Shown here piece after piece: positions 2,157-31,893 of a DNA stretch of 63,924 bases. A program made the translations under genes and the position numbers. The notes under the pieces are model-generated. The model did not search any database and had not been told where the DNA came from. It saw only the letters and a list, made by a program, of their open reading frames with translations. Every line of letters starts with the position of its first letter. The first letter of the stretch is position 1. This stretch comes from an uncultured Flavonifractor sp. GTDB lineage: Bacteria; Bacillota; Clostridia; Oscillospirales; Oscillospiraceae. Where the stretch lies: positions 1-63,924 of the forward strand of contig CANAAV010000015.1 in assembly GCA_947346365.1 (NCBI GenBank), read 5' to 3'.

Positions 2157-2159
2157 GGC

Positions 2160-4990: not shown

Positions 4991-5043
4991 ACCTCCAGCG
5001 GTGCCGCGGAAAACAGAATCTGGAAAAACCGCTGAAGCAAACG

Positions 5044-5081: not shown

Positions 5082-5111
5082 ACAGCCCTTTTTAGAAAGT
5101 GAGGGACGACA

Positions 5112-6041: not shown

Positions 6042-6058
6042 AGGAGGGTGGGAAGAGT

Positions 6059-6913: not shown

Positions 6914-6927
6914 CAGGAGGCGGGAAA

Positions 6928-7944: not shown

Positions 7945-7946
7945 AC

Positions 7947-8993: not shown

Positions 8994-9007
8994 AGGGAGC
9001 GATAGGT

Positions 9008-10453: not shown

Positions 10454-10467
10454 TTGGGAGTGCTGAT

Positions 10468-11913: not shown

Positions 11914-11939
11914 TCTACAAAAAGAAGGAGGGATGCGGC

Positions 11940-14605: not shown

Positions 14606-14634
14606 GGGTCGGCGGGAAAGGATGAGTATTGACT

Positions 14635-15513: not shown

Positions 15514-15530
15514 GAGAGGGGGAGAGCGCC

Positions 15531-16421: not shown

Positions 16422-16432
16422 GGGGAGTGGCT

Positions 16433-17761: not shown

Positions 17762-17804
17762 GAGAAGTTTCATGCTACAATTTTTGGAAGGGAGGGAGTA
17801 AAGG

Positions 17805-19160
17805 ATGCCGAGTGCCTCTCCGGTGATAACTGACATGAAGGTAGTCCCTGTGGCGGGGTATGACAGTATGCTTTTGACCCTTTCAGGGGCCCACGCCCCC
17901 TGCTTTACCCGGAATCTGGTTATTTTAACCGACTCCGCCGGACACACCGGCGTGGGGGAGATTCACGGCGGGGAGTATACCTATGACAGCCTTTTGGCGG
18001 TGCGGGAACTGGTGGTGGGCAGGCAGCTGCTGCGCTGCCGGGGCATTCTCCGGGATCTGGACCGCGCCGCGCTGGGCGGCGGAGGAGAAGGGGACGGGGA
18101 GGGTATTCAGACGCTGGACCTGTCCAAGCTGAAATATGTGGTCAAAGGCCGGTGGGCGGTGGAGTGCGCCCTGCTGGATCTGCTGGGGCAGTTTCTGGGT
18201 CTGCCCATGTGCGAGCTGCTGGCGCAAGGAAAGCAGAGGGACCGGGTAGAGGTGCTGGCCTACCTCTTTTTTGTGGGGGATAAAGGCCGGTGGACAGATT
18301 TGGCCCTTCCTTACCTGGACGAGGGGGACAGCAGGGACCCCTGGTTTCGGATGCGCCGCCAGACCATCCTCACCCCGGATGCGGTGGCCGACGAGGCCCA
18401 GTGCCTGCACGAGCGGTACGGTTTTACCAGCTTTAAGCTGAAGGGGGGCGTCTGGGCGGGCGGGACGGAGCTGTCCGCCCTGCGGAAGGTGAAGGAGCGC
18501 TTTCCCCAGGCACGGACCAGCATCGACCCGAACGGCGCCTGGAGCCTGGCCCAGGCGGTTGAGCTGTGCCGGGAAAACCGGGACGTGCTCACCTATGTGG
18601 AGGATCCCTGCGGCCCGGAGTGCGGTTATTCCGGCCGGGAGATCCTGCGGGAGTTCAAGAATGCCGTCCAACTTCCGGTGGCGACGAACATGGCCGCCAC
18701 CGACTGGCGGCAGTTTTACCATACCGCATGCCTGGGCGCCTGCGATATCATCTTGGCGGACCCCCATTTTTGGGGCTTTGAGGGGTCGGTGCGGATGGCT
18801 CAGCTGCTGGAGAGCTGGGGTTTGACCTGGGGTGTGCACTCCAACAACCATTTTGACGTGACCCTGGCGGCCTTTGCCCAGGTAGGTTGCGCAGCCCCCG
18901 GGGCGCCGGCTCCGCTGGACACTCATTGGGTCTGGCAGGATGGGCAGAGGCTGACCAAGCAGCCGCCGGTTATCGAGAAAGGGGCCCTGCGCCTGCCGCC
19001 CGGCCCGGGACTGGGGATAGAACTGGACATGGAGCGGGTGGAGCGGGCCCACAGGCTTTACCAAACGCTCTCCAGCCACGACAGGGACGACGCGCTGGCC
19101 ATGCAGAGCCTTATCCCCGGCTGGAAGTTTGACCACAAGCGGCCCTGCATGGTCCGCTGA
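17805..19160 (+). CDS. glucarate dehydratase paralogue
   Basis: A 451-residue second member of the glucarate dehydratase group. It keeps TLSGAHAPCFTRN, the FKLKGGVWAG lysines, SIDPNGAW, EDPCGPECGYSGRE, VATNMAATDW and VHSNNHFDVTLAAF. It differs from the first copy in an insertion near residues 85-110 and in several pocket segments. E. coli likewise pairs GudD with the paralogue GudX. The two may differ in stereochemical preference or form a mixed oligomer. GGGAGGG and AAAGG precede the ATG at 17805. Confidence 0.87.
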   Translation: MPSASPVITDMKVVPVAGYDSMLLTLSGAHAPCFTRNLVILTDSAGHTGVGEIHGGEYTYDSLLAVRELVVGRQLLRCRGILRDLDRAALGGGGEGDGEGIQTLDLSKLKYVVKGRWAVECALLDLLGQFLGLPMCELLAQGKQRDRVEVLAYLFFVGDKGRWTDLALPYLDEGDSRDPWFRMRRQTILTPDAVADEAQCLHERYGFTSFKLKGGVWAGGTELSALRKVKERFPQARTSIDPNGAWSLAQAVELCRENRDVLTYVEDPCGPECGYSGREILREFKNAVQLPVATNMAATDWRQFYHTACLGACDIILADPHFWGFEGSVRMAQLLESWGLTWGVHSNNHFDVTLAAFAQVGCAAPGAPAPLDTHWVWQDGQRLTKQPPVIEKGALRLPPGPGLGIELDMERVERAHRLYQTLSSHDRDDALAMQSLIPGWKFDHKRPCMVR

Positions 19161-19172
19161 AAGGAGAAGGCT

Positions 19173-20414
19173 ATGGGCGATCCCTTACGCGAGGATGCGC
19201 GGACCATTGTGCGCCGGGCCATTGAGGCGGTTCAGCCCGGCCCGGCAGTCCGCCGGGCCCTGTCCGGATGGGGGAAAGGGGCGGGCAGGCTGGTTCTGGT
19301 GGCGGTGGGCAAGGCGGCCTGGTCCATGGCCCGGGCCGCCTGGGACTGCCTTGGCGGCCAGATTGACGCGGGCATTGTCATTACAAAGTACGGCCACGCC
19401 CAAGGGCCCATCGGCAGTCTGGAGATCCGGGAGGCGGGCCATCCCGTTCCGGACCGGGCGGGGTTTTCCGCCACCGGAGAGGCTCTGCGCTTAACGCAGG
19501 GGCTTTCGGAAGAGGACACGGTGCTGTTTCTGCTCTCCGGGGGCGGTTCGGCCCTGTTTGAGGACCCGCTGGTTTCGCCCGGCGAGCTGGAGGACATCAC
19601 CGGGCAGCTGCTCTCCTGCGGTGCGGGAATTGTGGAGATGAACACCGTGCGCAAGCGGCTGTCCAGAGTAAAGGGCGGGCGCTTTGCCCGGCACTGCGCC
19701 CCGGCCAGGGTGTTTTCTGTGGTTCTTTCCGACATTGTGGGGGACCCGCTGGATATGATCGCGTCCGGTCCGGCCTATCCGGATTCCTCCACCTGCGGCG
19801 AGGCCAGGGCGGTGGCGGAAAAATACGGCCTGCGTCTCTCCGAGAGAGCCAGGGCGCTGCTGGGCCGGGAGACGCCGAAATTTTTGGACAATGCGCAGGC
19901 GGTGATAACCGGCAGCGTGCGGGAGCTGTGCGCGGCGGCGGCGGCGGCCTGCGGAGAGCTTGGCTATGAGCCGGCCGTGCTCACCGACTGTCTGGACTGT
20001 CAAGCCAAAGAGGCGGGAGCCTTTTTGGCGGCCATTGCGAAAAGTCATCGGGATACCGCCCGTTCCCTGGCCTTTTTGGCGGGGGGAGAGACGGTGGTCC
20101 ACCTGACGGGACGGGGACTGGGCGGGCGGAATCAGGAGTTGGCTCTTGCCGCGGCGGAGGGGATTGCCGGCCTGCGGGACACCGCGGTATTTTCCGTGGG
20201 CAGCGATGGAACGGACGGTCCCACGGACGCCGCTGGAGGCTATGTGGACGGCGGCACAAAGCAGGCGTTGGAGCGGCAGGGACTTTCGGTGTTTGACGCG
20301 CTGGAGGAAAACGACGCGTACCACGCCCTAAAGGCGGTGGGCGGCCTGCTGTTCACGGGGCCCACCGGGACAAACGTAAACGACGTGGCGGTGGCGCTCA
20401 TCAGGCGCGAATAG
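19173..20414 (+). CDS. glycerate 2-kinase (MOFRL family)
   Basis: A 413-residue class II glycerate kinase. The N-terminal half carries VAVGKAAWSMARAAWD and the FLLSGGGSALFEDP loop, and the C-terminal MOFRL part includes GRGLGGRNQELAL and SVGSDGTDGPTDAAGGYVDG. The family phosphorylates D-glycerate to 2-phosphoglycerate with ATP and so returns the reduced tartronate semialdehyde to lower glycolysis. It is the last gene of the operon, 12 bases after the second dehydratase, with AAAGGAGAAGG as ribosome site, and is followed by the hairpin at 20436. Confidence 0.9.
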   Translation: MGDPLREDARTIVRRAIEAVQPGPAVRRALSGWGKGAGRLVLVAVGKAAWSMARAAWDCLGGQIDAGIVITKYGHAQGPIGSLEIREAGHPVPDRAGFSATGEALRLTQGLSEEDTVLFLLSGGGSALFEDPLVSPGELEDITGQLLSCGAGIVEMNTVRKRLSRVKGGRFARHCAPARVFSVVLSDIVGDPLDMIASGPAYPDSSTCGEARAVAEKYGLRLSERARALLGRETPKFLDNAQAVITGSVRELCAAAAAACGELGYEPAVLTDCLDCQAKEAGAFLAAIAKSHRDTARSLAFLAGGETVVHLTGRGLGGRNQELALAAAEGIAGLRDTAVFSVGSDGTDGPTDAAGGYVDGGTKQALERQGLSVFDALEENDAYHALKAVGGLLFTGPTGTNVNDVAVALIRRE

Positions 20415-20435: not shown

Positions 20436-20469
20436 GCCCCCTGGCGCAGCATAGGCCGCGCCAGGGGGC
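20436..20469 (-). terminator. strong GC hairpin between convergent operons
   Basis: A perfect 12-base-pair stem (GCCCCCTGGCGC at 20436-20447, GCGCCAGGGGGC at 20458-20469) with a 10-base loop. On the minus strand it is followed by TTTTT, so it is a canonical terminator for the kinase operon. For the plus-strand aldarate operon it has only a weak T tract but could still end transcription. Confidence 0.85.
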
Positions 20470-20504: not shown

Positions 20505-22430
20505 TCAGCCGGAGAAGTCCCCGCGAGACCACTGGCCCTCGTATACGGTTCCGTCGCTGAACCACATTTTTCCATAGCCGCTTTTCAGGCCGCCGGAGAA
20601 ATTGCCATCATAGGCGCCATCCACAGCGCTGCGCCACTGTCCATAGCCCTCGATAAGACCGTTGGACCAGCTGCCGGACCAAAGGGTATCGCCGTAATCC
20701 CAGCGGTCGTTGGTCTCGTGGATGGTCAGCGTGCCGCTGCCATGGGGCTTGCCGTCCTTCCAGTCGCCGGTGTAAACGCCGGTTACGGAGAATTTGCTGG
20801 TGACCATGGTATATGGCTCATTGGAGACAGAGGTGATTTCGGGCGTAGGCGTAGGCGTAGGTGTTGGCGTGGGAGAAGGGGTGGGTTTCGGCGTAGAGGC
20901 CGGCGTTGGAGAGGGAGTTGGTGTGGGAGTGGGAGTTGGTGTGGGAGTGGGAGTTGGTGTGGGAGTGGGAGTTGGCGCGGGAGTGGGAGTTGGCGCGGGG
21001 GTGGATTGTGCGGCAAGGGTGGGCGTGGGCGCCGGTTCAGGAGTAGGCGTCGGCGCGGGCTCTGGGGTAGGAGTGGGGATCGACGCGGGCAGAGGGACGG
21101 CGCCTGTCTCTGCCGGGGCGCCCACAGTTCCGGAGGAGACCGATATGCCCGCCCCACCCACCTCAGTTGCGGGCAGATTGGGCTGGGCAGTCTCCCGGTT
21201 GGGCGCGGGGGTGGCCGCCGTCCCACTGCCGGAGGGAAGGGAAGAGAAGCCGAAGAAAGCCAGTACAACAACCAACAGCGCCGCCGCCCCTGCGGCCGCG
21301 AATTTCCAGACGCCGGTCTGCTTAGGCTTCGGTGTGGGCGCAGGCGCCGGTTCGGGCGTGGGCTTCGGTGTGGGCGCAGGCGCCGGTTCGGGCGTGGGCT
21401 TCGGTGTGGGCGCAGGCGCCGGTTCAGGCGCGGGGTTCGGCGTGGGTGCGGGCGCCGGTTCAGGCGCGGGCGTCAAGGCGGCGATATCCGAGCGGAACTC
21501 CGCGATGCTTTGATAGCGGTCCTGGGGCTGAACCTCCAGGGCCTTTAAAATAGCGTCCTCCAGCTCCGGCGGCAGCTTGATGCCTCTGGACGTGGGCGGG
21601 ACCAGGTCGTCCTCCTCCATCCGGTCCAGGGCCTCCGGGGGCAGAACTCCGGTGAGCGCGGCGTAAAAGCACGCGCCCAGGGAGTAAATATCTGTGTAGG
21701 GTCCCTGGCGGCCCCGGCGGGTGTACTGCTCTTTCGGGGCGTAGCCGGGCTTGAGCACCACATCCAGGCTGCGGCTGCGGTCGCCCAGGCTGTACCGGGC
21801 CGCGCCGAAATCCAGCAGCTTGACCTGGCCGTTCCCAGCGATGTAGATGTTATCGGGGGTTACGTCCCGGTGAATCAGGCCTTCCCGGTGAACGGATTCC
21901 AGGGCGTTCATAACCGGCAGCAGCAGACGGACGGTCTCTTCCCAGGTCAAATGTCCGCCGCAGGCGCGCAGGTGGCTTTTCAGGCTGATTCCCTCGATAT
22001 ACTCCATGGAGAAATAGGCGGTGCCGTTTTCCTGGAAGTAGCTGTGCACACCCACGATGTTGGGATTGTCCAGGAATTTCGCCAGAGTTTTAGCTTCCTC
22101 CAGGAAACAGTCCAGGCCATACTGAAACTGTGTGCCCCGGTCGCCGCTGTAGGCGGTGACCTGCAAAGAGCCGCCGGAGCGCCCAGCCATGGTGTCGGGC
22201 AGAAATTCTTTGACCGCCACCCGCTGGTTGGTTTTATTGTCCAGGGCCAGATAGGTGATGCCGAAGCCGCCCTGTCCCAGGACCCGGCCGGTGATATACT
22301 GCCCGGCCAGAATGCTGCCGTGGGGCAGCGCCAGAGGGAATTTTCCAGCGTCCTGCTTGGGGTCATATCCGCAGTGGGGGCAGGGCCCGGGGCTGCTGAG
22401 GTTTTGGAAGCAGTTGTAACAGTATGGCAT
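20505..22430 (-). CDS. membrane Ser/Thr protein kinase with C-terminal MORN repeats
   Basis: A 641-residue eukaryotic-like kinase. A zinc-ribbon-like start (C4, C7, C17, C20) precedes a kinase domain at about 40-310 with the GQGGFGITY loop, VAVKEFLP lysine, HRDVTPDN catalytic loop and LLDFGAAR. A Pro-Thr linker, one membrane helix near residue 390 (FAAAGAAALLVVVLAFFGF) and a second, long Pro-Thr stalk follow. The outer C-terminus (about 555-641) has MORN-type repeats such as YTGDWKDGKPHGSGTLTI and VYEGQWSRGDFSG. MORN units may bind lipid, wall or partner proteins. It is the last gene of the phospho-signalling unit and a paralogue of the next kinase; AAGGAG lies upstream of the ATG. Confidence 0.88.
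   Translation of the reverse strand: MPYCYNCFQNLSSPGPCPHCGYDPKQDAGKFPLALPHGSILAGQYITGRVLGQGGFGITYLALDNKTNQRVAVKEFLPDTMAGRSGGSLQVTAYSGDRGTQFQYGLDCFLEEAKTLAKFLDNPNIVGVHSYFQENGTAYFSMEYIEGISLKSHLRACGGHLTWEETVRLLLPVMNALESVHREGLIHRDVTPDNIYIAGNGQVKLLDFGAARYSLGDRSRSLDVVLKPGYAPKEQYTRRGRQGPYTDIYSLGACFYAALTGVLPPEALDRMEEDDLVPPTSRGIKLPPELEDAILKALEVQPQDRYQSIAEFRSDIAALTPAPEPAPAPTPNPAPEPAPAPTPKPTPEPAPAPTPKPTPEPAPAPTPKPKQTGVWKFAAAGAAALLVVVLAFFGFSSLPSGSGTAATPAPNRETAQPNLPATEVGGAGISVSSGTVGAPAETGAVPLPASIPTPTPEPAPTPTPEPAPTPTLAAQSTPAPTPTPAPTPTPTPTPTPTPTPTPTPTPSPTPASTPKPTPSPTPTPTPTPTPEITSVSNEPYTMVTSKFSVTGVYTGDWKDGKPHGSGTLTIHETNDRWDYGDTLWSGSWSNGLIEGYGQWRSAVDGAYDGNFSGGLKSGYGKMWFSDGTVYEGQWSRGDFSG
20838..21006. repeat. 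short-period tandem repeats coding a Pro-Thr stalk
   Basis: On the plus strand the sequence is a run of GGAGTTGGTGTGGGAGTG-type units of 18 bases with 6-base sub-periods, breaking down at both ends. In the kinase frame it codes alternating Pro-Thr with some Ala, Ser and Lys. Such DNA is prone to slippage, so stalk length may vary between strains. Confidence 0.8.
21325..21468. repeat. 36-base tandem repeat, about four copies
   Basis: A 36-base unit starting at 21325, 21361, 21397 and 21433 codes a 12-residue Pro-Ala-Thr-Glu-Lys block in the kinase linker before the membrane helix. The first three copies are nearly identical and the fourth is diverged, which is typical of recent expansion. Confidence 0.8.
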
Positions 22431-22467
22431 GGTGATGCTCCTTTCAGGGGAATATGCCCCGCTCTTT

Positions 22468-23991
22468 TTACCGCTGTGCGCCGTTGAGGCGCTCCAGCAT
22501 CCGCTGAGCCTCGGCGGAGGCTTCGCTGCGGGCGGAGACCGCTTGTTTCAGCCACTGGACGGCCTGCGCGGCGTTGGTCTGCACGCCCTCCCCGGCGGCA
22601 TAGCAGCGGCCCACCGCGTAAAAAGCGTCGGTATTGCGGCCCTTCGCAGCGGCCAAGTACCATTTAAAAGCGGCCTGCTTGTCTTGGGGAAGGCCAAAGC
22701 CCAGCCGGAAGCACTCACCCAAGCAGTACTTTGCCCGGCTGTCTCCCAGCCTGGCGGCCTGAAAAAAGAGCCGGACCGCCCTCTGGCTGTCGCCCTGTTC
22801 ACAGCTGGCGCAGGCCTGCTGGTAAAGGTATCCGGCTTTGGCGGCGAAAATCCGCGGCGCGCCTGCGCCGCCGGAGGGGAGGCGCAGCGCAGTGGGCGCG
22901 CAGGGGACTGCCGGGGTGGGAATCTCCGCGGGAGAAGGCGGAGGGAATGCCGGAGGGAGCGAATGCAGATTAGAGCCGGGCGGGCCGCTGGGGGCGTCCA
23001 TTAAGGCCTGTGTGATGGCCTGTGAAAACTCCTCCATGGTCTGATAGCGCAGCTCCGGCAGGACTGCCAGGCCCTTGGCAACGACATTGTCCAGCATCGG
23101 CAGGGCGAATATGCCACAGCGAAAGCGCTGCTCCAGCTCGTCGTGCTCCAGCCGCTCCAGAGCGGGAGGGGGCACCACTCCGGTGACGGCGGCGTAAAGG
23201 CATGCCGCCACGGAGTAGACGTCGGTATAGGGCCCTTGGCGGCTCCGGTGGGTATACTGTTCCTTAGGGGCATAGCCGGACTTGAGGATTACGTCCAGGC
23301 TGCGCCTGCGGTCGCCCAGGCTGTACCGGGCGGCGCCGAAATCCAGGAGCTTAACCTGTCCGGACGCGGCGGGGCGGTGGGCGGGCAGGTCTCCGGCGAT
23401 GTAGATGTTGTCAGGGGTTACGTCCCGGTGGATTAAACCCTTTTGGTGTACGTCCTGGAGGGCATAGATAACTGGCTGTAAAATTTGCAGGGCGGTTATT
23501 TCATTGATCCTTCCGCCGTGGCTGCGCAGATAGGCTTTGAAGCTGATTCCTTCGATATAGTCCATAACAAAGTAGGCGGTGCCGTTTTCCTGAAAAAAAC
23601 TGCGCACGCCCACAATGCGGAGATTGTCGGAAAATTTAGCCAGTATCCGGGCCTCCTCCAAAAAACACTCCAGACCATAGCGGAAGGCGTCGGCCTCGTC
23701 ATGACCGAGGGGCGAGACCAGAATAGACCCAGATACGCGGTGGGCGGCCGCCGTGGGCAGATACTCCTTGATGGCGACCTTCGCGCCGCGTTGGTGGTCC
23801 AGGGCCACATAGGTGACGCCACCCCCCCCCCGTCCCAGGACCCGGCCGGTGATATACCGTCCCGCCAGAATGCTGCCGTGGGGCAGCGTGCCGAAGCTGC
23901 GCGCCCGGTCCCATTCCGGGTCGTACCCACAGCGTGGACAGGGCCCCTCGCCGGCCCGCTCCTGAAAACAGTTATAGCAGGGTGCCGCCAT
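22468..23991 (-). CDS. Ser/Thr protein kinase with C-terminal Sel1-like repeats
   Basis: A 507-residue kinase with four early cysteines (about residues 5, 8, 18, 21) forming a zinc-ribbon-like motif. The kinase domain (about 40-320) has a GRGGGGVTY loop, VAIKEYLP lysine, HRDVTPDN, LLDFGAAR and GYAPKEQY. After a Pro-rich linker the C-terminus (about 385-500) has Sel1/TPR-like helices (LFFQAARLGDSRAKYCLGEC; WYLAAAKGRNTDAFYAVGRC), which usually act as protein docking surfaces. No membrane helix is obvious, so it is probably cytoplasmic, unlike its neighbour. The glycine loop is encoded by a run of ten Gs. It starts 3 bases after the FHA gene's stop. Confidence 0.88.
   Translation of the reverse strand: MAAPCYNCFQERAGEGPCPRCGYDPEWDRARSFGTLPHGSILAGRYITGRVLGRGGGGVTYVALDHQRGAKVAIKEYLPTAAAHRVSGSILVSPLGHDEADAFRYGLECFLEEARILAKFSDNLRIVGVRSFFQENGTAYFVMDYIEGISFKAYLRSHGGRINEITALQILQPVIYALQDVHQKGLIHRDVTPDNIYIAGDLPAHRPAASGQVKLLDFGAARYSLGDRRRSLDVILKSGYAPKEQYTHRSRQGPYTDVYSVAACLYAAVTGVVPPPALERLEHDELEQRFRCGIFALPMLDNVVAKGLAVLPELRYQTMEEFSQAITQALMDAPSGPPGSNLHSLPPAFPPPSPAEIPTPAVPCAPTALRLPSGGAGAPRIFAAKAGYLYQQACASCEQGDSQRAVRLFFQAARLGDSRAKYCLGECFRLGFGLPQDKQAAFKWYLAAAKGRNTDAFYAVGRCYAAGEGVQTNAAQAVQWLKQAVSARSEASAEAQRMLERLNGAQR
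23822..23831 (-). repeat. G10 homopolymer inside the kinase glycine loop
   Basis: Ten consecutive C on the plus strand (G10 in the coding strand) encode the glycines of GRGGGGVTY. The sister kinase has GQGGFGITY without a homopolymer. A change of one base would shift the frame near codon 58 and abolish the kinase. Confidence 0.9.
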
Positions 23992-23994
23992 GAC

Positions 23995-24552
23995 TTACAG
24001 GCTGACCCGGAACAGGGTGGCCCGGGAGGCCAGATAAAAATCGTTCCCCGGCTGCATAGCCATGGGCTGGCCCTGGAGCACCTGCGTTCCGTTGCCCAGG
24101 AAGGTGCCGTAAGAGGATCCCAGATCATAGAGGATAAACATCTGTGTTTGGGGATTGTATTGGATCTTGCAGTGGTTGCGGCTGATTCCGGGCGCGCCGT
24201 GGGGAAACACAAAGTCGCAGGACGCCGGATCCGTTCCCAGCATAGAGCCCTGGAGGGAGATGGGGAAAGAGCGTCCGGCAAACTGCCCGGAAATGCCGAT
24301 AATTTGAGGATTCACTTGACCGCTTCCTTTCCGGGGAACTGGCTGAGGCTGGGCCATGGGCTGAACTGCGGGCTGGGAAACCGGAGGCTGGTAGGGCTGG
24401 CTGCTGCTGGCGACAAAGGTGTGGGCCATGCGGTCGTGGAGCGTTCTTCCGTCAGGGTCAAAAAATCCGATTAAAAAGCCGATGCCCAAACAGACGCCTG
24501 AGATGAGGCGGCCCAGGGAGCGGAGAAAGGCGGTGCCGTAGCTCAGGGGCAT
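23995..24552 (-). CDS. FHA-domain protein with the C-terminal half of an RDD membrane domain
   Basis: A 185-residue product. Residues 1-50 (LSYGTAFLRSLGRLISGVCL, then a hydrophobic stretch and RTLHDRMAHTFV) are the last part of an RDD membrane domain. A Pro/Gln linker and an FHA domain follow (about 95-185: GSMLGTDPASCDFVF, GISRNHCKI, DLGSSYGTFLGNG). FHA domains bind phosphothreonine, so this is a likely reader of the neighbouring kinases. Its frame overlaps the preceding gene by 10 bases, and together they make one complete RDD-FHA protein, so this is probably a frameshifted half. Translation from its own ATG, which lies inside the upstream gene, is also possible. Confidence 0.75.
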   Translation of the reverse strand: MPLSYGTAFLRSLGRLISGVCLGIGFLIGFFDPDGRTLHDRMAHTFVASSSQPYQPPVSQPAVQPMAQPQPVPRKGSGQVNPQIIGISGQFAGRSFPISLQGSMLGTDPASCDFVFPHGAPGISRNHCKIQYNPQTQMFILYDLGSSYGTFLGNGTQVLQGQPMAMQPGNDFYLASRATLFRVSL

Positions 24553-24776
24553 TCGTCCTCTCCCACCACAATAAGCCCGCAGATGCGCTTGCCCAGGGAC
24601 GCGCTCATTGGGCTGCCCTCACACAGGCCAAAATAGAACGGGCTTAAAAAGGGAATACACAAAAAATACAGCTCCAGGGATATCCGGGCCAGCAGCCCCA
24701 AGATTACGTTGAGGATGATTCCGTCCAGAAAGAACGCGCCGACGCGGGCGCCCATGGAACCTTTTTGCTGATACAT
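24543..24776 (-). CDS. N-terminal half of an RDD-domain membrane protein (split gene)
   Basis: A 77-residue product beginning MYQQKGSMGARVGAFFLDGI, the typical Arg...Asp start of an RDD domain, and ending GKRICGLIVVGEDECP at a TGA. Without the next frame it lacks the third RDD helix. The break falls at TGCCCCTGA: one extra C would give codons for Cys-Pro-Leu-Ser-Tyr and join it exactly to the following frame. AGAGAGG precedes the ATG at 24776, and the gene starts 13 bases after the VWA-FHA stop. Single-base loss, sequencing error, slippage control or true splitting are all open. Confidence 0.7.
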   Translation of the reverse strand: MYQQKGSMGARVGAFFLDGIILNVILGLLARISLELYFLCIPFLSPFYFGLCEGSPMSASLGKRICGLIVVGEDECP

Positions 24777-24789
24777 CAAACAGTCCTCT

Positions 24790-26229
24790 CTAAAATTTGA
24801 GCCGGAACTGGACCGTTCCGATGGTAATTTCATCCCCGCTGCGCAGTCGGTTGGGGCGGTGGAGGCGCATTCCGCCCAAAGCGGTTCCGTGCCGGGAGCC
24901 CAAGTCCTCAATATAGACCATGTTGTCCCGCCGGAAGATGCGGGAGTTGCGAGGAGAGACGTCTTTGTCCTTCCAGGAGAGGTCGCACTGATTTCCCCGC
25001 CCAATGATCAGCTCATCCGCGAGATAAAACTCTTTGACGCCGGCGTAAGCGCCGGAGATGACCTCCAGGCGCATAAAGACGCTGCCTGCGGAAGCTGTGC
25101 CGCCTGGGCGCCTGCCTCTGCGGCGGCGGAGAAAGAGCAGCGCCGCCAGCACCAGCAGAGCCATGCCCCCCGCGCCCAGCGCAGCCCATTGGCTCTGGCC
25201 GGAAAAGGCCGCGGGCGACGGAGAGGCTTCCGGCGTAGCGGGCGCGTCCGAGCCTTCCGGAGCGGGCGGAGCTTCTGCGGCTCCGGAGCCGCCGGGCGTG
25301 GGAGTAGGGGTGGGGTCTGTCAGGCCGCCGGAGGCGCTCCCGCCCTGGGCGACGGAAAGCAAGGGCGCGTGCTGCATGTCTACGTCCAGATTTTGCTTCC
25401 CTGTGTCCTCCCAGGAAAGGCAGAGCTCCGCGCCGCCGTCCTGGCCGCTCCAGGTAAAGCGCATGGCGCAGAGGCTGTTGACGGACTGTGCCAGTTGCGC
25501 TCCCACCGCTTTGACATTTTCGGGCCCGGCGTCGGCGTGTAGTCCGCGGCCTGGGGAGGGAAAACCGTCCGCCGTGTCGACGCCGGTGGGGGATAAAGAG
25601 ACGGTGTGGACCAGGATGGAAGGGTCCTCCGCCAGGCGTTGAGCCGTCTCAGCTAAGGCAGCGTTCCCCCATTCAGGCGCGGCGGCGGTGACAATGACCA
25701 GATTGACCAGCTCTCCGGCTCGCCTGGGAAAGGCGGCTAAATAGTCCAGCGCACCCTGAACGCCCAGGGCCAAATCCGCCTGTTCCGCCTGGGCGCACTC
25801 CAGACCGGACACCGCCCAGGCAAGGCGCTCCGCCTCTCCCTGCCAGGACAGACAGAACACTTCATCAAAGGAGAACAGGGTAAACTGCGCCTGTGTGCGG
25901 TCCTCCTGGACCAGGGCCCTGGCAAAGCTGCCTGCGCTCCGGCGCAGGTCCTTCATGGCGGCGGAGCTGTCCACCAGCAGGAGGTAGGAGACGGGAAGGC
26001 CGCTCCCCGCCAGAGAAACGGGCCCCAGATTCACAGGGAGGGACCGCTCTTCGGAGCGCAGCTCCGCCGTCAGGGTGGAAGGCCATTTATCCAGGGCGGC
26101 AAAGGCGTAAAATTGATCGTCCTGGCGGAAACAGGCGGCTACTGCCGCCGTTCCGGCCGCCTGGGCGGGGCCCGGCAAAAGCCGCGCGACCAGCAGGAGG
26201 AGCGCCAGGGACTTGCAGATTCGTTTCAT
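24790..26229 (-). CDS. VWA-domain membrane protein with cytoplasmic FHA domain
   Basis: A 479-residue protein. A signal peptide (SLALLLLVARLLPGPAQA) is followed by an extracytoplasmic von Willebrand A domain (about 85-270, LLLVDSSAAMKDLRRS). A Pro/Ser/Glu-rich stalk, a membrane helix near residue 360 (MALLVLAALLFL, then RRRRGRR) and a C-terminal FHA domain follow (LIIGRGNQCDLSW, SPRNSRIFRR, DLGSRHGTALGG). The MIDAS motif, normally DxSxS, reads DSSAA, so metal binding may be altered. The layout suggests an outside sensor coupled to a phosphothreonine reader inside. The start at 26229 has GGAG 9 bases upstream. Confidence 0.88.
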   Translation of the reverse strand: MKRICKSLALLLLVARLLPGPAQAAGTAAVAACFRQDDQFYAFAALDKWPSTLTAELRSEERSLPVNLGPVSLAGSGLPVSYLLLVDSSAAMKDLRRSAGSFARALVQEDRTQAQFTLFSFDEVFCLSWQGEAERLAWAVSGLECAQAEQADLALGVQGALDYLAAFPRRAGELVNLVIVTAAAPEWGNAALAETAQRLAEDPSILVHTVSLSPTGVDTADGFPSPGRGLHADAGPENVKAVGAQLAQSVNSLCAMRFTWSGQDGGAELCLSWEDTGKQNLDVDMQHAPLLSVAQGGSASGGLTDPTPTPTPGGSGAAEAPPAPEGSDAPATPEASPSPAAFSGQSQWAALGAGGMALLVLAALLFLRRRRGRRPGGTASAGSVFMRLEVISGAYAGVKEFYLADELIIGRGNQCDLSWKDKDVSPRNSRIFRRDNMVYIEDLGSRHGTALGGMRLHRPNRLRSGDEITIGTVQFRLKF

Positions 26230-26261
26230 AGCGTTTTCTCCAATCCAAACAAAACCGGAGG

Positions 26262-27002
26262 TCAGTGGACAAACACCGCCAGGAGCGTCAGATTGTCGCT
26301 CCCAGGCCGCATGCGGGGCAGCGCCCGCACAAGCATTCGCTCTGCCCACGCCTCCGGCGTTTCCGATTTGAGAAAATCGAGGAGAATTTCCTCCTCAAAC
26401 AGGTACTCCCAAAAACCGTCCGAACAAAGAAGAAACGCGTCGCCGGGCTGTACAGGGCCGCTCTCCGCCTCTCCCGACTCCGGGAGGCAGCGGGACACAT
26501 CGCCCACCACGCGCAGCAGGGAGGAGCGGTCTTCGTCAAAATTAATTTCCTCCCGGCTGATCTCTCCGGCCAGATATTTTTTGTAGGTTACGGAGTGGTC
26601 CCGGGTGACCTGGAGCAGCCGGCCGCCGGTGAGATAGTACAGCCGGGAATCCCCCACATGGGCCCAGGCGGCCCGGCCCTCTTTCAGAGCCAGGGCCACC
26701 AGGGTGCTTTTCATGCTGTTCTGCCGCTGTGTCTGGGCGGATAGCAGGGCTTGGTTGGCGTCGAGGATGGCGTCTTCCAGCCATTGGCGGCAGCCTGGGG
26801 CGGACAGCTCCCCGCTGGCCGCCTCCCAGGCGGCCAGCAGGGATTCCACCACTAGCGCCGAGGCGTGGGCTCCGCCCAGATGCCCGCCGAGACCGTCGGC
26901 CAGCAGGAAGAGTCCTTCATCACCGCTGGAGCGGAAGTCCGCGTTGTCTTCATTGTAGGGCCGGCCGCCGGGGTTGGTGTATAGATAAGCGTCCAGCTTC
27001 AT
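26262..27002 (-). CDS. PP2C-family Ser/Thr protein phosphatase (first)
   Basis: A 246-residue PPM/PP2C phosphatase with the metal-binding motifs in order: RPYNEDN near residue 15, LLADGLGGHLGGAHAS, AHVGDSRLYYLTGGRL, LLCSDGFWEYL and DNLTLLAV. These hold the aspartates that bind two Mn2+/Mg2+ ions. It has no membrane segment. It would reverse the phosphorylation made by the locus kinases. It sits 3 bases after the stop of the protease-FHA gene and 32 bases before the VWA-FHA start. Confidence 0.92.
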   Translation of the reverse strand: MKLDAYLYTNPGGRPYNEDNADFRSSGDEGLFLLADGLGGHLGGAHASALVVESLLAAWEAASGELSAPGCRQWLEDAILDANQALLSAQTQRQNSMKSTLVALALKEGRAAWAHVGDSRLYYLTGGRLLQVTRDHSVTYKKYLAGEISREEINFDEDRSSLLRVVGDVSRCLPESGEAESGPVQPGDAFLLCSDGFWEYLFEEEILLDFLKSETPEAWAERMLVRALPRMRPGSDNLTLLAVFVH

Positions 27003-27005
27003 GCC

Positions 27006-28487
27006 TCACCCCAGCTCTACGCGCAGGGCGTTGTCCCGCTCGCCCAGATAGAACGTGTCGCCGGGACGCAGCCGGGTGGAGACGCCGGGCGTAATCTTTT
27101 GGCCGTTGGCCAGGAAAGTGCCGTAAGTAGAGCGCAGGTCGGTGAGTAAAAACTCGCCTGCGGCGGGGTCCCAGGAGACGGAGCAGTGGCGGGAGCTCAC
27201 GCCGGGCGTTCCGCTTTGGAAGGTGATTTTGCAGGAGGCTAGGTCCCGGCCGATGAGAATGCCCTGCGTATCCACGGGGACCTGAAGTCCGCCGTGCTGC
27301 CGGCTCATGGAGCGCACGAAGGGCGACTGAACAGGCTGGACGGGCTGAGGCGGCGGAGTGGGGGCGGCGGGCGCGGGCTGCGCGCCTTTTTTGCCCTTGG
27401 AGGAGACCGCCACAATCACGCCCACGACTGCGGCGGCGGCAACGCCCACGACTACCCATATCAGCCAGCCGTTGGAGGCGGGCTTGGGCTCGGGGGTGGG
27501 CTGCGGGTCTTGATTCTCATCGTCAGCGGCGGACAGGGAGTACGTGTCATAGGCGATTCCCTGGCCGTCCAGCATACGCATGACATATTCCGTCTCCACG
27601 GCGGCATTGTTGTTGCTCTGGCCCGAGGCGCTGGTGCCGTTGAGATTAAAGGAGAAGGTGTTGACCCCTACCACGGCGCCCTGGGCGGTGACCAGGGGTC
27701 CGCCGGAGTTGCCGGGGTTAATCTGGGCGCTGTGCTGGATGATGCGGCAGTTTTCATCGGTATAGTCGGTGAAACGGTTTACGGTGCCGTCGGTGGCGGT
27801 ACAGCTGCTGATGGATCCGGCGTAAAAGACATCCGCTGAATCGGAGTTCTCATACCGCATCATACCCGCGGCATCCGCGCTGGTGGGGAAGCCCAGGGCA
27901 AAAACCGACTCGCTGACCCCTATGCCCCCCTCCGCCGCCAGCAGGGGGAGGGCTATGCGCTTTTCTACCGGCTCCTCTGTGCGCAGCACAGCCAGATCGG
28001 GCTCATCCTCCCGGTTCCGGTGGGCCACGGTGCAGGGGACCGCCCGGCTGGTGTCCAGGCCGGTGGCGGTGGAGTAGGCATCGTCGTCCAAAAGGATGTA
28101 TACCCGGATCAGGGTGAGGGGAACTGTGTAGTAGGTGTTATCGCGGTCCCCAAAGTCCAGGTCGTAGAGCAGCCGGAGCTGCTTTGCGGTAATAGTGGTG
28201 GTGGATTCCGGCTCCACTACGTGGCGGTTTGTGACAAAAATATTCGTGGGCTCTCCGGAGGTTCCCACACCGAAAGCAGAGCCTACCGAGTAGGACTGAA
28301 AGCCGCGGGCGGTCAGGTAGTCCCCCAAATCGCCCTCCCGGCACTCATATACGCACAGCACGCGGGCAACGCCGCTGCGGGCCTGATCCACCGCGTTTGT
28401 ATCTCCCGAAGACGCCAAAGCGCCGCCGGAGAGGGCGCAGGCTGTGAGTACAGCGGTCAGCGTCCATATCAGCAATTTCTTTTTCAC
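27006..28487 (-). CDS. membrane-anchored trypsin-like serine protease with FHA domain
   Basis: A 493-residue protein: signal peptide (LLIWTLTAVLTACALSGGAL), then a trypsin/DegP-like protease domain with the triad visible as VTNRHVV (His), EDEPDLAVLR (Asp) and NPGNSGGPLV (Ser). A stalk, a membrane helix near residue 350 (WLIWVVVGVAAAAVVGVIVAV) and a C-terminal FHA domain follow (ILIGRDLASCKITF, GVSSRHCSV, DLRSTYGTFLANG). Secreted protease and intracellular phosphothreonine reader are thus in one chain. AGGAGG eight bases ahead supports the GTG at 28487. No PDZ domain is seen. Confidence 0.9.
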   Translation of the reverse strand: MKKKLLIWTLTAVLTACALSGGALASSGDTNAVDQARSGVARVLCVYECREGDLGDYLTARGFQSYSVGSAFGVGTSGEPTNIFVTNRHVVEPESTTTITAKQLRLLYDLDFGDRDNTYYTVPLTLIRVYILLDDDAYSTATGLDTSRAVPCTVAHRNREDEPDLAVLRTEEPVEKRIALPLLAAEGGIGVSESVFALGFPTSADAAGMMRYENSDSADVFYAGSISSCTATDGTVNRFTDYTDENCRIIQHSAQINPGNSGGPLVTAQGAVVGVNTFSFNLNGTSASGQSNNNAAVETEYVMRMLDGQGIAYDTYSLSAADDENQDPQPTPEPKPASNGWLIWVVVGVAAAAVVGVIVAVSSKGKKGAQPAPAAPTPPPQPVQPVQSPFVRSMSRQHGGLQVPVDTQGILIGRDLASCKITFQSGTPGVSSRHCSVSWDPAAGEFLLTDLRSTYGTFLANGQKITPGVSTRLRPGDTFYLGERDNALRVELG

Positions 28488-28501
28488 GGGCTTTCCTCCT
28501 G

Positions 28502-29320
28502 TCAATATCCGCAATTTATGACCAATGCGGTATAGTTGTCCTGGTTCCTGCGCCCCAGGGTATAAATTTGCTCATCCATACGGGCGCAGGCCTCGGCGGG
28601 ATCGTCCGCCTTCAGGCAGTCCAGAATGGCAGCCTCGTCCAAAGAGCCCCCCACGCCGTCGGAGCACAGCACCAGGGCGTCTCCATCCTGCAAAGGCAGA
28701 GGCCGGAGGCTCAAATCCATTTCCCCTAGCTCATCCTTGCCCAGAAATTGGGCAAGACGGTGCCCGTCCGGATCCGCGTTGGCCGGGCCGGGGTCCAGAT
28801 GGCCGGCCCGCACCGCCTCCAGGTAGAGCTCAGAGCGGTAATTTTGATCTCGATTGACCCGATAGAGTCCGTTTCCGCGTTTTAGGTAGATGTAACTGTC
28901 CCCTACGCTGACCCAATAAAGAGTCTCCTGGAAGAAAATACAGGCTGCCAACGTGGTGCCCCCCGCCCCGCGGAAGCGACCGTACAGGGTTTGTGCGGTT
29001 TGCAGCACGCATTGCCGCAGCTGCTGGGCCAGATCGGCCCGCCGGTCCATCTCGCCAAATCCGGCCAGCAGCTCCGCCACGGCGCGCTCGCTGACCAGCT
29101 TTCCGTCCTCCATGCCGCCCATGCCGTCGGCCACCACGGCCAGCAGGCCTTTGCGGCGGATTTCTGTGACGTCCATGGCATTGGCGAAGGCGAAAGAATC
29201 CTCCTGCCGGGCGCGGGAACCGATCCCCTGTAGATTGGCAACCCGGTAGGAGAGCAGGCGGGGGGGAGGGGGAGGCGTTTCTTCCGGCCTGCGCCGGAAC
29301 AGCTTGGCGACGGGGTTCAT
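28502..29320 (-). CDS. PP2C-family Ser/Thr protein phosphatase (second)
   Basis: A 272-residue PP2C phosphatase. Motifs: SRARQEDSFA, VVADGMGGMEDGKLVSE, WVSVGDSYIYLKRG, LCSDGVGGSLDE and RNQDNYTALV. A short basic, Pro-rich N-terminus (KLFRRRPEETPPPPP) precedes the domain. It is clearly diverged from the other PP2C of this locus, with about the same motif set, so the two may act on different targets. The ATG at 29320 overlaps the preceding FHA gene's stop (ATGA), implying translational coupling between reader and phosphatase. Confidence 0.92.
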   Translation of the reverse strand: MNPVAKLFRRRPEETPPPPPRLLSYRVANLQGIGSRARQEDSFAFANAMDVTEIRRKGLLAVVADGMGGMEDGKLVSERAVAELLAGFGEMDRRADLAQQLRQCVLQTAQTLYGRFRGAGGTTLAACIFFQETLYWVSVGDSYIYLKRGNGLYRVNRDQNYRSELYLEAVRAGHLDPGPANADPDGHRLAQFLGKDELGEMDLSLRPLPLQDGDALVLCSDGVGGSLDEAAILDCLKADDPAEACARMDEQIYTLGRRNQDNYTALVINCGY

Positions 29321-30003
29321 TCCTTGCCGTCTCCGCTGCCCGTAAGGCCGTCCTCCCAGTTGAAGCGGGAGGAGCACAGAGGGATAAACACCAGCTTTGT
29401 CTCCCCAAATTCCAGCACGTCATAGGGGTTGAGGCGGGTGGGGATGTCGATCACGTCGTCATTGAGATAGATATTGTTGGTGCTGGAGGCGGGGATCACA
29501 CGGAAACGGTTGTTTTTGGGATCATAGCCCACCCGGGCATGGTCCTCCTTGGAAATGCTGGGGTCGCCCTTGATGCATACGTCCATTTTTTCGCTGCGGC
29601 CGACGGTGTTAATCCGGCCCCAGAGCTTGTAGTCCTTGCCTTTATCCTTGCCTTCGATGCATACCAGCCAGCCCACCACCGGCTCCAGTCCCATTTTCTG
29701 CTGCATGATGCCGACGGTGTGCTGGTCCTCATCCACCCGCCGCTCCACGGCGGGGCGGTAGCCTTTGGGCGGGCGGGTAACGTTGTCCGCCACCACAGGA
29801 TTGTCGGCGGGAATATGCGCGGAGGGGCCGTAGCCGCCGTCCAGGGGGGCGGTTTTGTCCTCACTGTACGCGGCGGGGGCAAACCCGCCGCCTGCGCGCC
29901 CGCTGTCAAAATTGATGATCGGCTGAGTGCTGTTGCAGTAGGGGCAGGAGGCGTAAATGTCCGAGTCGTAGATATGCCCGTGTCCGCATTCTGTCGCTGC
30001 CAT
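29317..30003 (-). CDS. zinc-ribbon FHA-domain protein
   Basis: A 228-residue soluble protein. The N-terminus has a zinc-ribbon-like CGHGHIYDSDIYASCPYC motif, followed by a variable linker with a threonine-rich stretch that could be a phosphorylation site (NVTRPPKGYRP). The C-terminal half is an FHA domain (NTVGRSEKMDVCIKGDPSIS, then KEDHARVGYD and SSTNNIYLNDDVID). It resembles GarA/FhaB-type adaptors that are phosphorylated on a threonine and then bind their own FHA domain. The start at 30003 has AAAGGGAGG upstream. Confidence 0.85.
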   Translation of the reverse strand: MAATECGHGHIYDSDIYASCPYCNSTQPIINFDSGRAGGGFAPAAYSEDKTAPLDGGYGPSAHIPADNPVVADNVTRPPKGYRPAVERRVDEDQHTVGIMQQKMGLEPVVGWLVCIEGKDKGKDYKLWGRINTVGRSEKMDVCIKGDPSISKEDHARVGYDPKNNRFRVIPASSTNNIYLNDDVIDIPTRLNPYDVLEFGETKLVFIPLCSSRFNWEDGLTGSGDGKE

Positions 30004-30017
30004 GGCAATACCTCCCT

Positions 30018-31151
30018 TTACAGCGCGATATCTAAGGTGTATACGAGCTCCAGCAGCTGGTCGTACAGAGACTGGGTGCACGCTTCGTTGGTATAGAGGG
30101 TGATGGCGTAATACTGGGTGGAGTTTTCCAGGCAGAGGATCTCCCGGTCAAAGGGGTCGCCGTCGATATTGACATAGTAGGTGTTCCAGCCGCGGAAAAA
30201 CAGGTTGGAGATGTCGCTGTCGGTGATGACCGCGTTTTCACCCGCCGCAGTCTGGGCGAGAGTGTCAATCATGGAGCGGGTGCTGGAGTACTCGTGTCCC
30301 GCTTTGGGCATGATGAGCAGGGACAGCAGTACGGCCCCGCCGCTGCTGTCGGTTTTGCTACAGCCAAAAGAGCACCAGCCGTCCTCATCCACCTCGTTGG
30401 TGGCAATCTCCCAGCCGGCGTCTTTGGGGATGCTGATCTTAAAGTTGCCGTTGGCCCCGGTGATGACCTGCCCGGGGGCGTTGGTGGAGACAGAGGTATG
30501 GACCCGGCTCTCCGGCAGGACGGCCCGGTTGATGATAGCGGCGGCCTCCGCCCGGGTGACCGGGTTATTGGGCTGAAAGGCCCCCGTCTCGCTGCCGGTC
30601 AGCACGCCCGCGCCGTAGAGAAGGTAAATAAAGTGGAAATAATCCATGTCCGGGGAGATATCAGAGATCCAGCCGATCCGGTTGATGCGGGGGAATTCAG
30701 TTGCCGGCAGGCTGTAAAAGAGGTTGGCCAGATCCGCCCGAGTGGCCATGGCGGTATAGTCCGTATACTCGCCCTCCTTGATGATTCCGGCCTGAATGGC
30801 GTAGTTGACCGCGTTGGCGTACCAGGGGGAGCCGCCGGGGGTGAGGCTGTTGCCAAAGTAGATGGCGTGGACGCGGGCGCCCATGGTGATGGCCTCGGCC
30901 ACGGTCAGGGTGCCGGTGGGGTCAAATTTTCCGTTGCCCTTGCCGTTGATGAGGTCCAGCTCATAGGCCTTGCGCACGTCGTTGGCATACCACGCGCCGG
31001 GCCCTACATCGGAGAAGCCGGGGAAATCCCGGACTTTCTTGAAATTTCCCATGCCTCCGCCCGCCGCCGCTGCCGCAGGCACCGCGGAAACCGCGATGAG
31101 AAGTGCCAGAACAAGTGAAGTCATCTGGCTCAAGAGCGCTTTTCGTTTCAT
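30018..31151 (-). CDS. secreted SLH-domain surface protein
   Basis: A 377-residue exported protein. A signal peptide (SLVLALLIAVSAVPAAAAAG) is followed by about three S-layer homology repeats (residues 40-215: GFSDVGPGAWYANDVRKAYE, NGKFDPTGTLTVAEAI, SDISPDMDYFHFIYLLYG, FQPNNPVTRAEAAAII), which bind pyruvylated secondary wall polymers. The C-terminal 150 residues have no family I recognise and may be the sensory or enzymatic part. It is the first gene of the phospho-signalling unit, downstream of a near-consensus promoter, so a cell-wall component is expressed together with kinases and phosphatases. Confidence 0.85.
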   Translation of the reverse strand: MKRKALLSQMTSLVLALLIAVSAVPAAAAAGGGMGNFKKVRDFPGFSDVGPGAWYANDVRKAYELDLINGKGNGKFDPTGTLTVAEAITMGARVHAIYFGNSLTPGGSPWYANAVNYAIQAGIIKEGEYTDYTAMATRADLANLFYSLPATEFPRINRIGWISDISPDMDYFHFIYLLYGAGVLTGSETGAFQPNNPVTRAEAAAIINRAVLPESRVHTSVSTNAPGQVITGANGNFKISIPKDAGWEIATNEVDEDGWCSFGCSKTDSSGGAVLLSLLIMPKAGHEYSSTRSMIDTLAQTAAGENAVITDSDISNLFFRGWNTYYVNIDGDPFDREILCLENSTQYYAITLYTNEACTQSLYDQLLELVYTLDIAL

Positions 31152-31262
31152 AATTACCGCCTTCCTTTCCATACATGCCGGCTGAATGGCACCGATTCTC
31201 ATGACAGGCATTCAAATTGAGAATGTCTCCAATTGAAATACTTTTACCAGCACTTAGCACTC

Positions 31263-31291
31263 ATTATAACAGTGGATATGTGGGATTGCAA
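31263..31291 (-). promoter_or_regulatory. near-consensus promoter of the phospho-signalling operon
   Basis: On the minus strand TTGCAA (31286-31291) and TATAAT (31263-31268) are exactly 17 bases apart. The transcript would have a leader of about 105 bases before the SLH start. A TTAGCACTC sequence, equal to one half of a CIRCE element, abuts the -10 box, but its partner half is missing. An imperfect dyad (AATTGGAGA-CAT-TCTCAATT) lies in the leader. Confidence 0.8.
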
Positions 31292-31306: not shown

Positions 31307-31735
31307 TTAGACAAATAATGCAGGCTGCATTCTTCCTTCTCTCATCGAGATGCCCACTATGGCCGCGGGGAGAAGCCGCAACTGTGCTCCAACGGGCATG
31401 CCGGCGCTGAATGGAGCCAGCGCCGTAATATGCGTGCGTTGTGTATAAACGCAGGCAGCCGTGGGTCCTATGGGCCCTGCAGAGCCGGGAAGACCTTGGA
31501 TGCCCTGGGGGCCCTGGGGCCCAGTGGGACCCAGAAGTCCGGCAGGTCCGGTAGGGCCGGTAGGACCCGGCAGGCCCGCCGGGCCAGGACGGCCCGCAGG
31601 CCCGGTGGGACCCATTGGACCCTGCGGTCCCATAGGTCCGGCAGGCCCGGTGGGACCCGGCACCGGGCAGTACTGCGGGCAGCTAGGGTGGCAGCAGCAG
31701 CTCTCCGGCATTTGGTTGGGCCGGTAGATATTCAT
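31307..31735 (-). CDS. collagen-like (Gly-X-Y) repeat protein
   Basis: A 142-residue protein. Residues 12-20 are cysteine-rich ([12 protein letters not shown]), residues about 24-87 are uninterrupted Gly-X-Y triplets ([18 protein letters not shown] and on) and the C-terminal 50 residues form a hydrophobic domain ([18 protein letters not shown]). This is the plan of short exosporium or surface filament proteins such as the BclA group, where the C-terminal domain starts trimer folding. There is no signal peptide. AAAGGAG lies 12 bases before the ATG at 31735. It ends 16 bases before the promoter of the SLH gene on the same strand. Confidence 0.82.
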
Positions 31736-31893
31736 AGAGTCAACAAGCTCCTTTCGCTTGGCCTCTGCGGACCGGGATCTCCAGTCCGCAGGAGGGCGGA
31801 ACATATGGCCCGCCATTTCATGTTATGTGCCGCCTTTTGCCGGGGTGAAAATCTTCCTTTTTCATCCAGACGGAGATTTTTCGCGCGGAGGAA

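Follow-up and report, generated by a model that had tools for sequence, protein, structure and literature searches.

A putative phosphothreonine signaling operon with receptor-like kinases and a zinc-ribbon FHA protein in Oscillospiraceae

Gene content of the locus

We analyzed a 63,924-nucleotide stretch of DNA from an uncultured Flavonifractor sp. of the Oscillospiraceae (contig CANAAV010000015.1, assembly GCA_947346365.1), hereafter called the window, which contains a compact run of genes for protein phosphorylation. Nine genes, all on the minus strand between positions 31,211 and 20,505, encode two kinases, two PP2C phosphatases, four FHA proteins and one SLH protein, as judged from Pfam matches and open reading frames (ORFs). 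An initial annotation, made from the sequence letters, had listed the same set, and each member was recovered at its place. In order of transcription, the genes encode the SLH protein, a zinc-ribbon FHA protein (ZnFHA), the phosphatase PP2Ca, a protease-FHA protein (ProtFHA), the phosphatase PP2Cb, a VWA-FHA protein, an RDD-FHA protein in two pieces, and the kinases K2 (kinase-Sel1) and K1 (kinase-MORN). Neighboring genes are spaced by -13 to +37 bp. As a promoter-like site (31263..31291, minus strand; TTGCAA, 17 nt, TATAAT, with TG; 10/12 consensus matches) precedes the first gene and a strong terminator-like hairpin (20436..20469, minus strand; 15 pairs, 13 of them G-C) follows the last, a single transcript is likely. 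Both sites are consensus matches, in a region where five promoter-like and 24 terminator-like sites were counted, against 2.5 and 11, respectively, expected in shuffles. The window's genome (G000), a 2.59 Mb draft in 44 contigs with 86 percent completeness, has five FHA domains, four of which lie at this locus, so that chance grouping does not explain the arrangement.

ZnFHA (29317..30003; Pfam FHA 39.4 bits, zinc ribbon from its Cys pattern) consists of an N-terminal zinc ribbon, a disordered Thr-rich linker carrying T51, T76 and T96, and an FHA domain. PP2Ca (28502..29320; PP2C_2 39.8 bits) and PP2Cb (26262..27002; PP2C_2 63.5 bits) are cytoplasmic PP2C phosphatases. For PP2Ca, Asp60 and Asp84 are kept in 95/95 sequences and Asp240 and Asp280 in 94/95, and for PP2Cb the residues Asp19, Asp36, Asp195 and Asp236 are kept in 88/88. 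For these and for the kinase counts given below, identical proteins were counted once.

Membrane segments and topology were assigned by hydropathy only throughout. ProtFHA (27006..28514; Trypsin_2 66.5 bits, FHA 58.2 bits) combines a hydrophobic segment at residues 14-32, a trypsin/HtrA-like protease with the triad His98, Asp173 and Ser270, a transmembrane (TM) segment at 352-370 and an FHA domain. Among 98 sequences, 93-95 retain the triad, and 83/98 share both the N-terminal segment and the TM segment between protease and FHA. In VWA-FHA (24790..26229), a TM segment at 349-367 separates VWA and FHA, and 53/64 VWA-FHA sequences show the corresponding pair of segments. Since the two segments separate protease and VWA from the FHA domains, the former are predicted outside and the latter inside the cell. 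The VWA part, named by the initial annotation, has a VWA fold in the predicted structure; its metal site is degenerate, as three positions kept by most relatives are Ala in the window's protein, and Pfam gave no VWA match at E <= 0.01.

The RDD-FHA protein is encoded by two overlapping ORFs, each with half of the RDD domain. The N-terminal piece (24543..24776) carries the first half (RDD 29.5 bits), and the C-terminal piece (23995..24552) carries the second half and the FHA domain (RDD 29.4 bits, FHA 51.1 bits). The RDD-linked FHA protein of the initial annotation is thus present with both domains, in a gene split by a frameshift. Intact versions occur elsewhere: at locus L071, RDD and FHA share one ORF (Pfam), and L073, L075 and L076 have matching single ORFs of 253-261 residues. 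A sequence error is possible, the genome being a draft.

The kinases K2 (22468..23991; Pkinase 87.7 bits, Sel1 47.6 bits) and K1 (20505..22430; Pkinase 109.1 bits, MORN 51.1 bits) both start with a C-x2-C ... C-x2-C pattern ahead of the Ser/Thr kinase domain. In K1 the kinase domain is followed by a TM segment (377-395), a Pro/Thr-rich stalk and a MORN-repeat ectodomain, and in K2 by Sel1 repeats, with no membrane segment predicted. The SLH-domain surface protein (30018..31211, probable start ATG at 31151; SLH 82.7 bits) is accessory.

Conservation of gene set and order

The window's genus comprises one genome, and the comparison drew on wider relatives. Scanning GTDB contigs yielded 449 stretches that encode ZnFHA; counts for named loci use the best 80 of them, whose titles include 22 Oscillospiraceae, 17 Lachnospiraceae, 7 Ruminococcus and 7 Oscillibacter. 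Some loci are the same contigs (for example L041/L080 and L050/L113, where L080 is from Flavonifractor sp. An92 and L113 from Oscillibacter valericigenes). Where a locus extends 5.5 kb or more downstream of ZnFHA, the order is ZnFHA-PP2Ca-ProtFHA-PP2Cb in 59/59 cases; VWA-FHA comes next after PP2Cb in 46 of these. The nearest upstream module gene of ZnFHA is a kinase in 55/63 loci with at least 2.5 kb of upstream DNA. Scattering of the genes among relatives, which the initial annotation had named as evidence against its reading, was therefore not what we observed. The closest arrangement lies in a single-contig genome of 4.3 Mb (L047, G100): kinase, ZnFHA, PP2Ca, ProtFHA, PP2Cb, VWA-FHA, RDD-FHA, kinase-MORN, SLH. 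A second order, ZnFHA-PP2Ca-PP2Cb-ProtFHA, is found in ten loci of the window's family, most of them continuing with kinases and seven having an RDD-FHA-like short protein in front.

The conserved core comprises six genes, namely kinase, ZnFHA, PP2Ca, ProtFHA, PP2Cb and usually VWA-FHA, with RDD-FHA as an optional member, so that the nine-part system of the initial annotation shrinks to six. The SLH protein was rejected as a core member, having a relative at only one other locus (L047, full-length); L041/L080 encodes an unrelated protein carrying SLH repeats. The Sel1 kinase K2 is not core either. The proposed link from wall sensing to the kinases had rested largely on the SLH protein and stays conjectural.

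Co-occurrence in related genomes, proposed earlier as a check, was borne out. Among 300 family genomes, ProtFHA was detected in 26 (19 of 106 genera) and ZnFHA in 35, including all 26 with ProtFHA (hypergeometric P 3e-30). Distance matrices of five core proteins correlate with r of 0.82-0.92 over 62 loci. With VWA-FHA as the sole query, no more than weak hits were obtained, in 6 further genomes out of 60, because it is conserved less than any other core protein (mean identity 0.30); ProtFHA and ZnFHA worked as queries.

Around the module, 811 flanking ORFs were clustered, and no cluster was found in more than 9/111 loci. Eight cluster representatives were scanned; two recurrent clusters without a Pfam match resemble, in our judgement of their composition, antisense translations. 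The earlier description of a self-contained circuit agrees with these data, in which a kinase, PP2C and FHA unit is kept together across many genera.

At phylum level ZnFHA is sporadic (17/398 genomes). Five distant loci with FHA-fused outputs (L178-L182) keep the module in shuffled orders, L181 showing no ProtFHA; thus, the gene set persists at distance and the order does not. The other 11 phylum loci comprise a different ZnFHA-PP2C array (L183-L192) and one locus with ZnFHA, PP2Cs and three kinases (L193). Wrong binning is possible for two loci: L149 (6.7 kb, titled Deltaproteobacteria), where a weak VWA-FHA match directly follows ZnFHA, and L086 (titled Muribaculaceae).

Several observations concern the surroundings; the assignments of the flanking ORFs and of the fifth FHA protein are by sequence inspection. 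Just upstream of the operon, 31307-31816 on the minus strand encodes a collagen-like repeat protein of exosporium/surface type. On its other side lie two similar tandem plus-strand ORFs resembling enolase-superfamily sugar-acid dehydratases (16340-19160), followed by a glycerate-kinase-like ORF (19173-20414). The sole FHA match elsewhere in the draft genome is an FtsW/RodA-like cell-shape/division membrane protein (L067:9547-11346, contig C2). A further kinase-domain match lies near a contig start (C16:1021-1461, L171) in a 242-residue frame and is possibly an assembly-cut kinase.

Receptor-like kinases and a candidate phosphorylated hub

The outer domains of the module's kinases are variable. 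The C-x2-C pattern is present in 74/119 related kinases, and the catalytic residues are kept among 125 kinase sequences (Lys in 113, HRD Asp in 123, DFG Asp in 121), some of which are cut by contig ends. A hydrophobic TM segment follows the kinase domain in 110 of the 119 distinct kinases, and the parts C-terminal to it sort into 29 sequence clusters. Pfam was run on 58 C-terminal halves (the window's K1 and 57 of the 119) and found LRR in 13 and MORN in 11, the others including DUF5050, YARHG, RCC1 and PASTA. Judged by these architectures, the module kinases look like receptors, with interchangeable outer sensors on one cytoplasmic circuit. A sensor expansion is seen at L078:1267-9811, where five module kinases stand in tandem upstream of ZnFHA, one of them without a predicted TM segment.

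The linker between zinc ribbon and FHA domain of ZnFHA is 39-135 residues long across relatives, and in the predicted structure it is disordered, with a predicted local distance difference test score under 50 over most of residues 30-89. The linker is otherwise poorly conserved, yet T96 is Thr in 99/99 sequences and never Ser, Asp or Asn; T76 is Thr in 96/99 (one Ser) and T51 in 92/99 (no Ser). A Thr lies exactly 12 residues ahead of the PVVGW start of the FHA domain in 84 of the 95 sequences used for linker statistics. In the same sequences, T-x-P/T-x-x-P motifs number 433, as compared to 198 +- 11 in shuffles, whereas the Ser version is below chance (85 vs 112). Near the FHA start, a [KRH]T-hydrophobic motif is present in 79 of the 97 sequences counted, its Ser version in 1/97. 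Since the 80 best loci were found via a PVVGW-type pattern, conservation of PVVGW itself is by construction; T96 lies outside the pattern.

The FHA pocket of ZnFHA is near invariant (Arg136 in 98/99, Ser151 in 92/99 with Thr in the remaining 7, Asn181 in 97/99). Its closest folds are GarA, DgcB and OdhI, and GarA is among the best sequence-profile matches (E 8.5e-8). FHA domains favor phosphothreonine over phosphoserine, and Thr-only conservation of the linker is therefore what an FHA ligand should show. ZnFHA itself looks like a phosphorylated hub, a point missed by the initial annotation.

We consider it probable that the locus represents a conserved phosphothreonine signaling operon, in which the hub ZnFHA is marked by receptor kinases, bound by FHA-tagged membrane outputs and cleared of its marks by PP2Cs. 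Going by their families, the kinases should phosphorylate Thr, the PP2Cs should reverse this, and the FHA domains of ZnFHA and ProtFHA should bind phosphothreonine. In the alignments, the kinase, PP2C and FHA residues are intact, as in a Hanks kinase/PP2C/FHA module, with the exceptions of the phosphate-binding Arg of VWA-FHA and of the window's RDD-FHA. In the proposed sequence of events, the receptor kinases, which are zinc-ribbon Ser/Thr kinases whose outer domains vary, would sense something at the cell surface and phosphorylate cytoplasmic ZnFHA on T51, T76 and above all T96, as their Thr-only conservation suggests. The FHA domains of ProtFHA, RDD-FHA, VWA-FHA (where still competent) and of ZnFHA itself would then dock on the phosphothreonines. 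Docking might bring the outer protease and the VWA domain together with the kinases, or activate protease and VWA, and the two PP2Cs would presumably strip the marks. The signal may run outside-in, inside-out or both.

Several observations weigh against this reading. The module is patchy in the family and so not essential to it, its order is lost in L178-L182, and the window's kinases stand downstream rather than upstream of ZnFHA. The four FHA proteins counted as readers by the initial annotation are all present, but they are not equal: VWA-FHA retains the phosphate-binding Arg in just 30/64 sequences, and the window's RDD-FHA has Thr at this position. With its frameshift and lost metal site, the window copy looks partly decayed. 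Regarding the linker, T51 and T76 sit among repeated T-x-P motifs, where alignment partly selects for Thr, and T96 stands where a short helix begins in the predicted structure (94-104), so that helix capping may explain part of its conservation.

These last points bear on a different explanation, in which ZnFHA is a constitutive scaffold. Its linker threonines would be kept for structure, as a helix cap or as part of an extended linker, and the main targets of the kinases would be other proteins, for instance the kinases themselves or envelope enzymes. The position of T96 on the helix and the lack of a binding Arg in some FHA domains of the locus would fit a scaffold. A helix cap, however, would also accept Ser, Asp or Asn, none of which ever replaces T96 in the 99 sequences. 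Moreover, a [KR]T-hydrophobic motif persists in 19/23 ZnFHA from other loci (exceptions L191, L192, L199 and L200; two of 25, L202 and L205, lack the border motif and were left out), where the sequence that follows often differs, and the FHA pocket of ZnFHA is almost invariant. We regard the scaffold explanation as unlikely, if worth keeping in mind, and favor the phosphorylated hub. What stands of the interpretation first given to this locus is a unit kept together, with conserved catalytic residues and kinases that mostly have a predicted TM segment and binding-repeat outer domains; nine parts, the wall link and four equal readers are not supported.

Other outputs of the ZnFHA core and comparison with known systems

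ZnFHA with PP2Cs, often joined by kinases, also occurs with other partners. At L198 (G301), positions 1691-19900 encode on one strand FtsK/EssC, a YukD-like protein (22.6 bits, under the cut-off of 27), DUF6382-FHA and WXG100, and then PP2Cb, PP2Ca, ZnFHA and two kinases; an alpha/beta-hydrolase-like gene is also seen among the type VII secretion genes and the ZnFHA core. At L204 (G155, 544-3807), ZnFHA and PP2C are followed by a PrsW intramembrane protease fused to FHA. In most of L183-L192, ZnFHA stands with PP2Ca and a protein of 540-700 residues matching PP2Cb. In the two loci scanned, L184 (5134-11463) and L185 (3452-14565), this protein has TPR repeats; both loci contain a DnaJ-like gene, judged from its N-terminal sequence, and L185 a small kinase. 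Finally, L201, L203, L205 and L206 encode PP2Cb, PP2Ca, ZnFHA and two kinases, with no ProtFHA or VWA-FHA match over 40 bits.

From these loci, a broader reading can tentatively be put forward, to which we give somewhat less than an even chance. Clostridia would share a portable receptor circuit, built from zinc-ribbon receptor kinases whose ectodomains can be swapped, from ZnFHA as the phosphothreonine hub and from one or two PP2Cs, and plugged into differing outputs, several of them FHA-tagged, with linker phosphothreonines as the common code; it would form a bacterial counterpart of eukaryotic receptor-kinase signaling. The outputs would include the surface HtrA-like protease with VWA, RDD proteins, PrsW-FHA (L204), type VII secretion (L198) and DnaJ/TPR-PP2C (L184, L185).

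L198 is also the main point in favor of seeing the module as the regulatory cassette of a type VII-like secretion system whose secretion genes were lost or separated, since it joins the core directly and on the same strand to secretion genes. In addition, several subtypes of the type VII secretion system (T7SS) carry kinases, PPM phosphatases and FHA proteins, according to the available part of PMC11217815. However, WXG100 exceeded its cut-off in only 4/26 module genomes, on other contigs of these drafts, as compared to 15/274 others (Fisher P 0.07), and 22/26 module draft genomes gave no match; the window's draft genome gave none. The L198 relative itself showed no ProtFHA match in the family-genome search, and no flanking cluster is shared by more than 9/111 loci. 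We judge this explanation improbable. The type VII link was rejected for the window's locus, whose draft genome lacks a WXG100 match, and kept for the L198 core.

That the locus is a stress or anti-phage module, comparable to TerY-P or MADS, would fit its patchy distribution, and the combination of zinc-ribbon kinase, PP2C and VWA is reminiscent of the TerY-P triad as presented in the available text of PMC7159879 and PMC4978471. A PADLOC scan of nine proteins, leaving out the RDD-FHA N-terminal piece, matched the kinases to mad6 and PD-T4-6, PP2Cb to PDC-M21C (42 bits) and the protease to RT-Protease_XI (37.5 bits). These matches fit shared enzyme domains, and ZnFHA, PP2Ca, VWA-FHA, the RDD-FHA C-terminal piece and the SLH protein had no match; as the scan gave shared-domain matches only, a defense system was rejected. 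TerD (PF02342) was detected in 3/26 module genomes and, with other Ter families not searched, gave no match in the 86 percent complete draft of the window, on which ground a Ter link was rejected too. Neighbor genes that recur widely are lacking. Altogether, we find a stress or anti-phage role very improbable. The earlier statement that no Ter proteins or secretion parts are present here is in line with the absence of TerD and WXG100 matches from the genome.

To our knowledge, receptor-type kinase signaling in Clostridia is little charted beyond PrkC. The operon described here is compact, uniting sensor kinases and erasers with a proposed hub and a surface protease; it could be rebuilt in vitro, and it yields concrete predictions concerning three threonines and one hub. 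With many relatives keeping the same genes together, it looks like a real signaling circuit. If modular outputs hold true, one code would govern proteolysis at the surface in some species and the secretion of proteins in another. Literature searches, covering open-license papers only, found no description of this module, and ZnFHA with ProtFHA is not described in the available portions of PMC7159879, PMC4978471, PMC11217815, PMC6509490, PMC6733907 and the bacterial-kinase review PMC6213207.

Parts of the design are nevertheless familiar. In plants, LRR receptor kinases act with the FHA-PP2C protein KAPP. As in the module, LRR receptor kinases, FHA and PP2C meet in one circuit; in contrast to plants, the kinase is N-terminal here and FHA and PP2C reside on separate proteins, and the likeness is an analogy only. 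The PpkA/PppA/Fha set of type VI secretion was compared by the TagH/Fha model TIGR03354, which gave 24.6-33.9 bits against a cut-off of 120.25; T6SS structural genes were not searched for. The T7SSc and T7SSe clusters share a TM kinase, a PPM phosphatase and FHA proteins with the module, and at L198 the ZnFHA core is coupled with a cluster of this kind. The window's unit, unlike these, has no secretion genes, EssC/FtsK not being among its proteins (no genome-wide EssC search was made), and the word 'trypsin' does not occur in the main text of PMC11217815, whose available passages contain no ZnFHA-protease set.

With the TerY-P triad the module has in common a zinc-ribbon kinase, PP2C (two here) and VWA in one array. 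The VWA differs in that it is not stand-alone but predicted outside, followed by a TM segment and fused to FHA, and FHA proteins are central here. The archaeal ArnA-ArnB network is alike in comprising an FHA protein, a VWA protein, Ser/Thr kinases and a phosphatase. In Foldseek, the top rows for the model of VWA-FHA list the ArnAB complex together with 4fx5 and the ArnB paralog vWA2; in the profile search with VWA-FHA, the FHA domain of ArnA (E 6e-8) and the VWA domain of 8s05_A (E 5e-7) are hit. The FHA domain of ArnA, a protein with a zinc finger, ranks 45 among fold matches of ZnFHA, and the ZnFHA sequence profile does not reach ArnA. ArnA and ArnB are described, in the available text of PMC6509490, as FHA and VWA partners under Ser/Thr kinases.

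The FHA proteins GarA, OdhI and DgcB each bind the tail at their own N terminus, as stated in the accessible part of PMC6733907. Like them, ZnFHA has a disordered tail with conserved Thr ahead of its FHA domain. It differs by its N-terminal zinc ribbon, its several Thr motifs, its being encoded with its own kinases and PP2Cs and its lack of GGDEF, and T96 lies far closer to the FHA domain than the known tail sites. Scores with NCBIfam models are far below cut-off, with 19.6-20.8 bits for NF041660 (OdhI; cut-off 200) and 21.3-65.4 bits for NF049868 (FhaB/FipA; cut-off 125). TerY-P, T7SSc/e, ArnA-ArnB and GarA/OdhI/DgcB each share part of the module's design.

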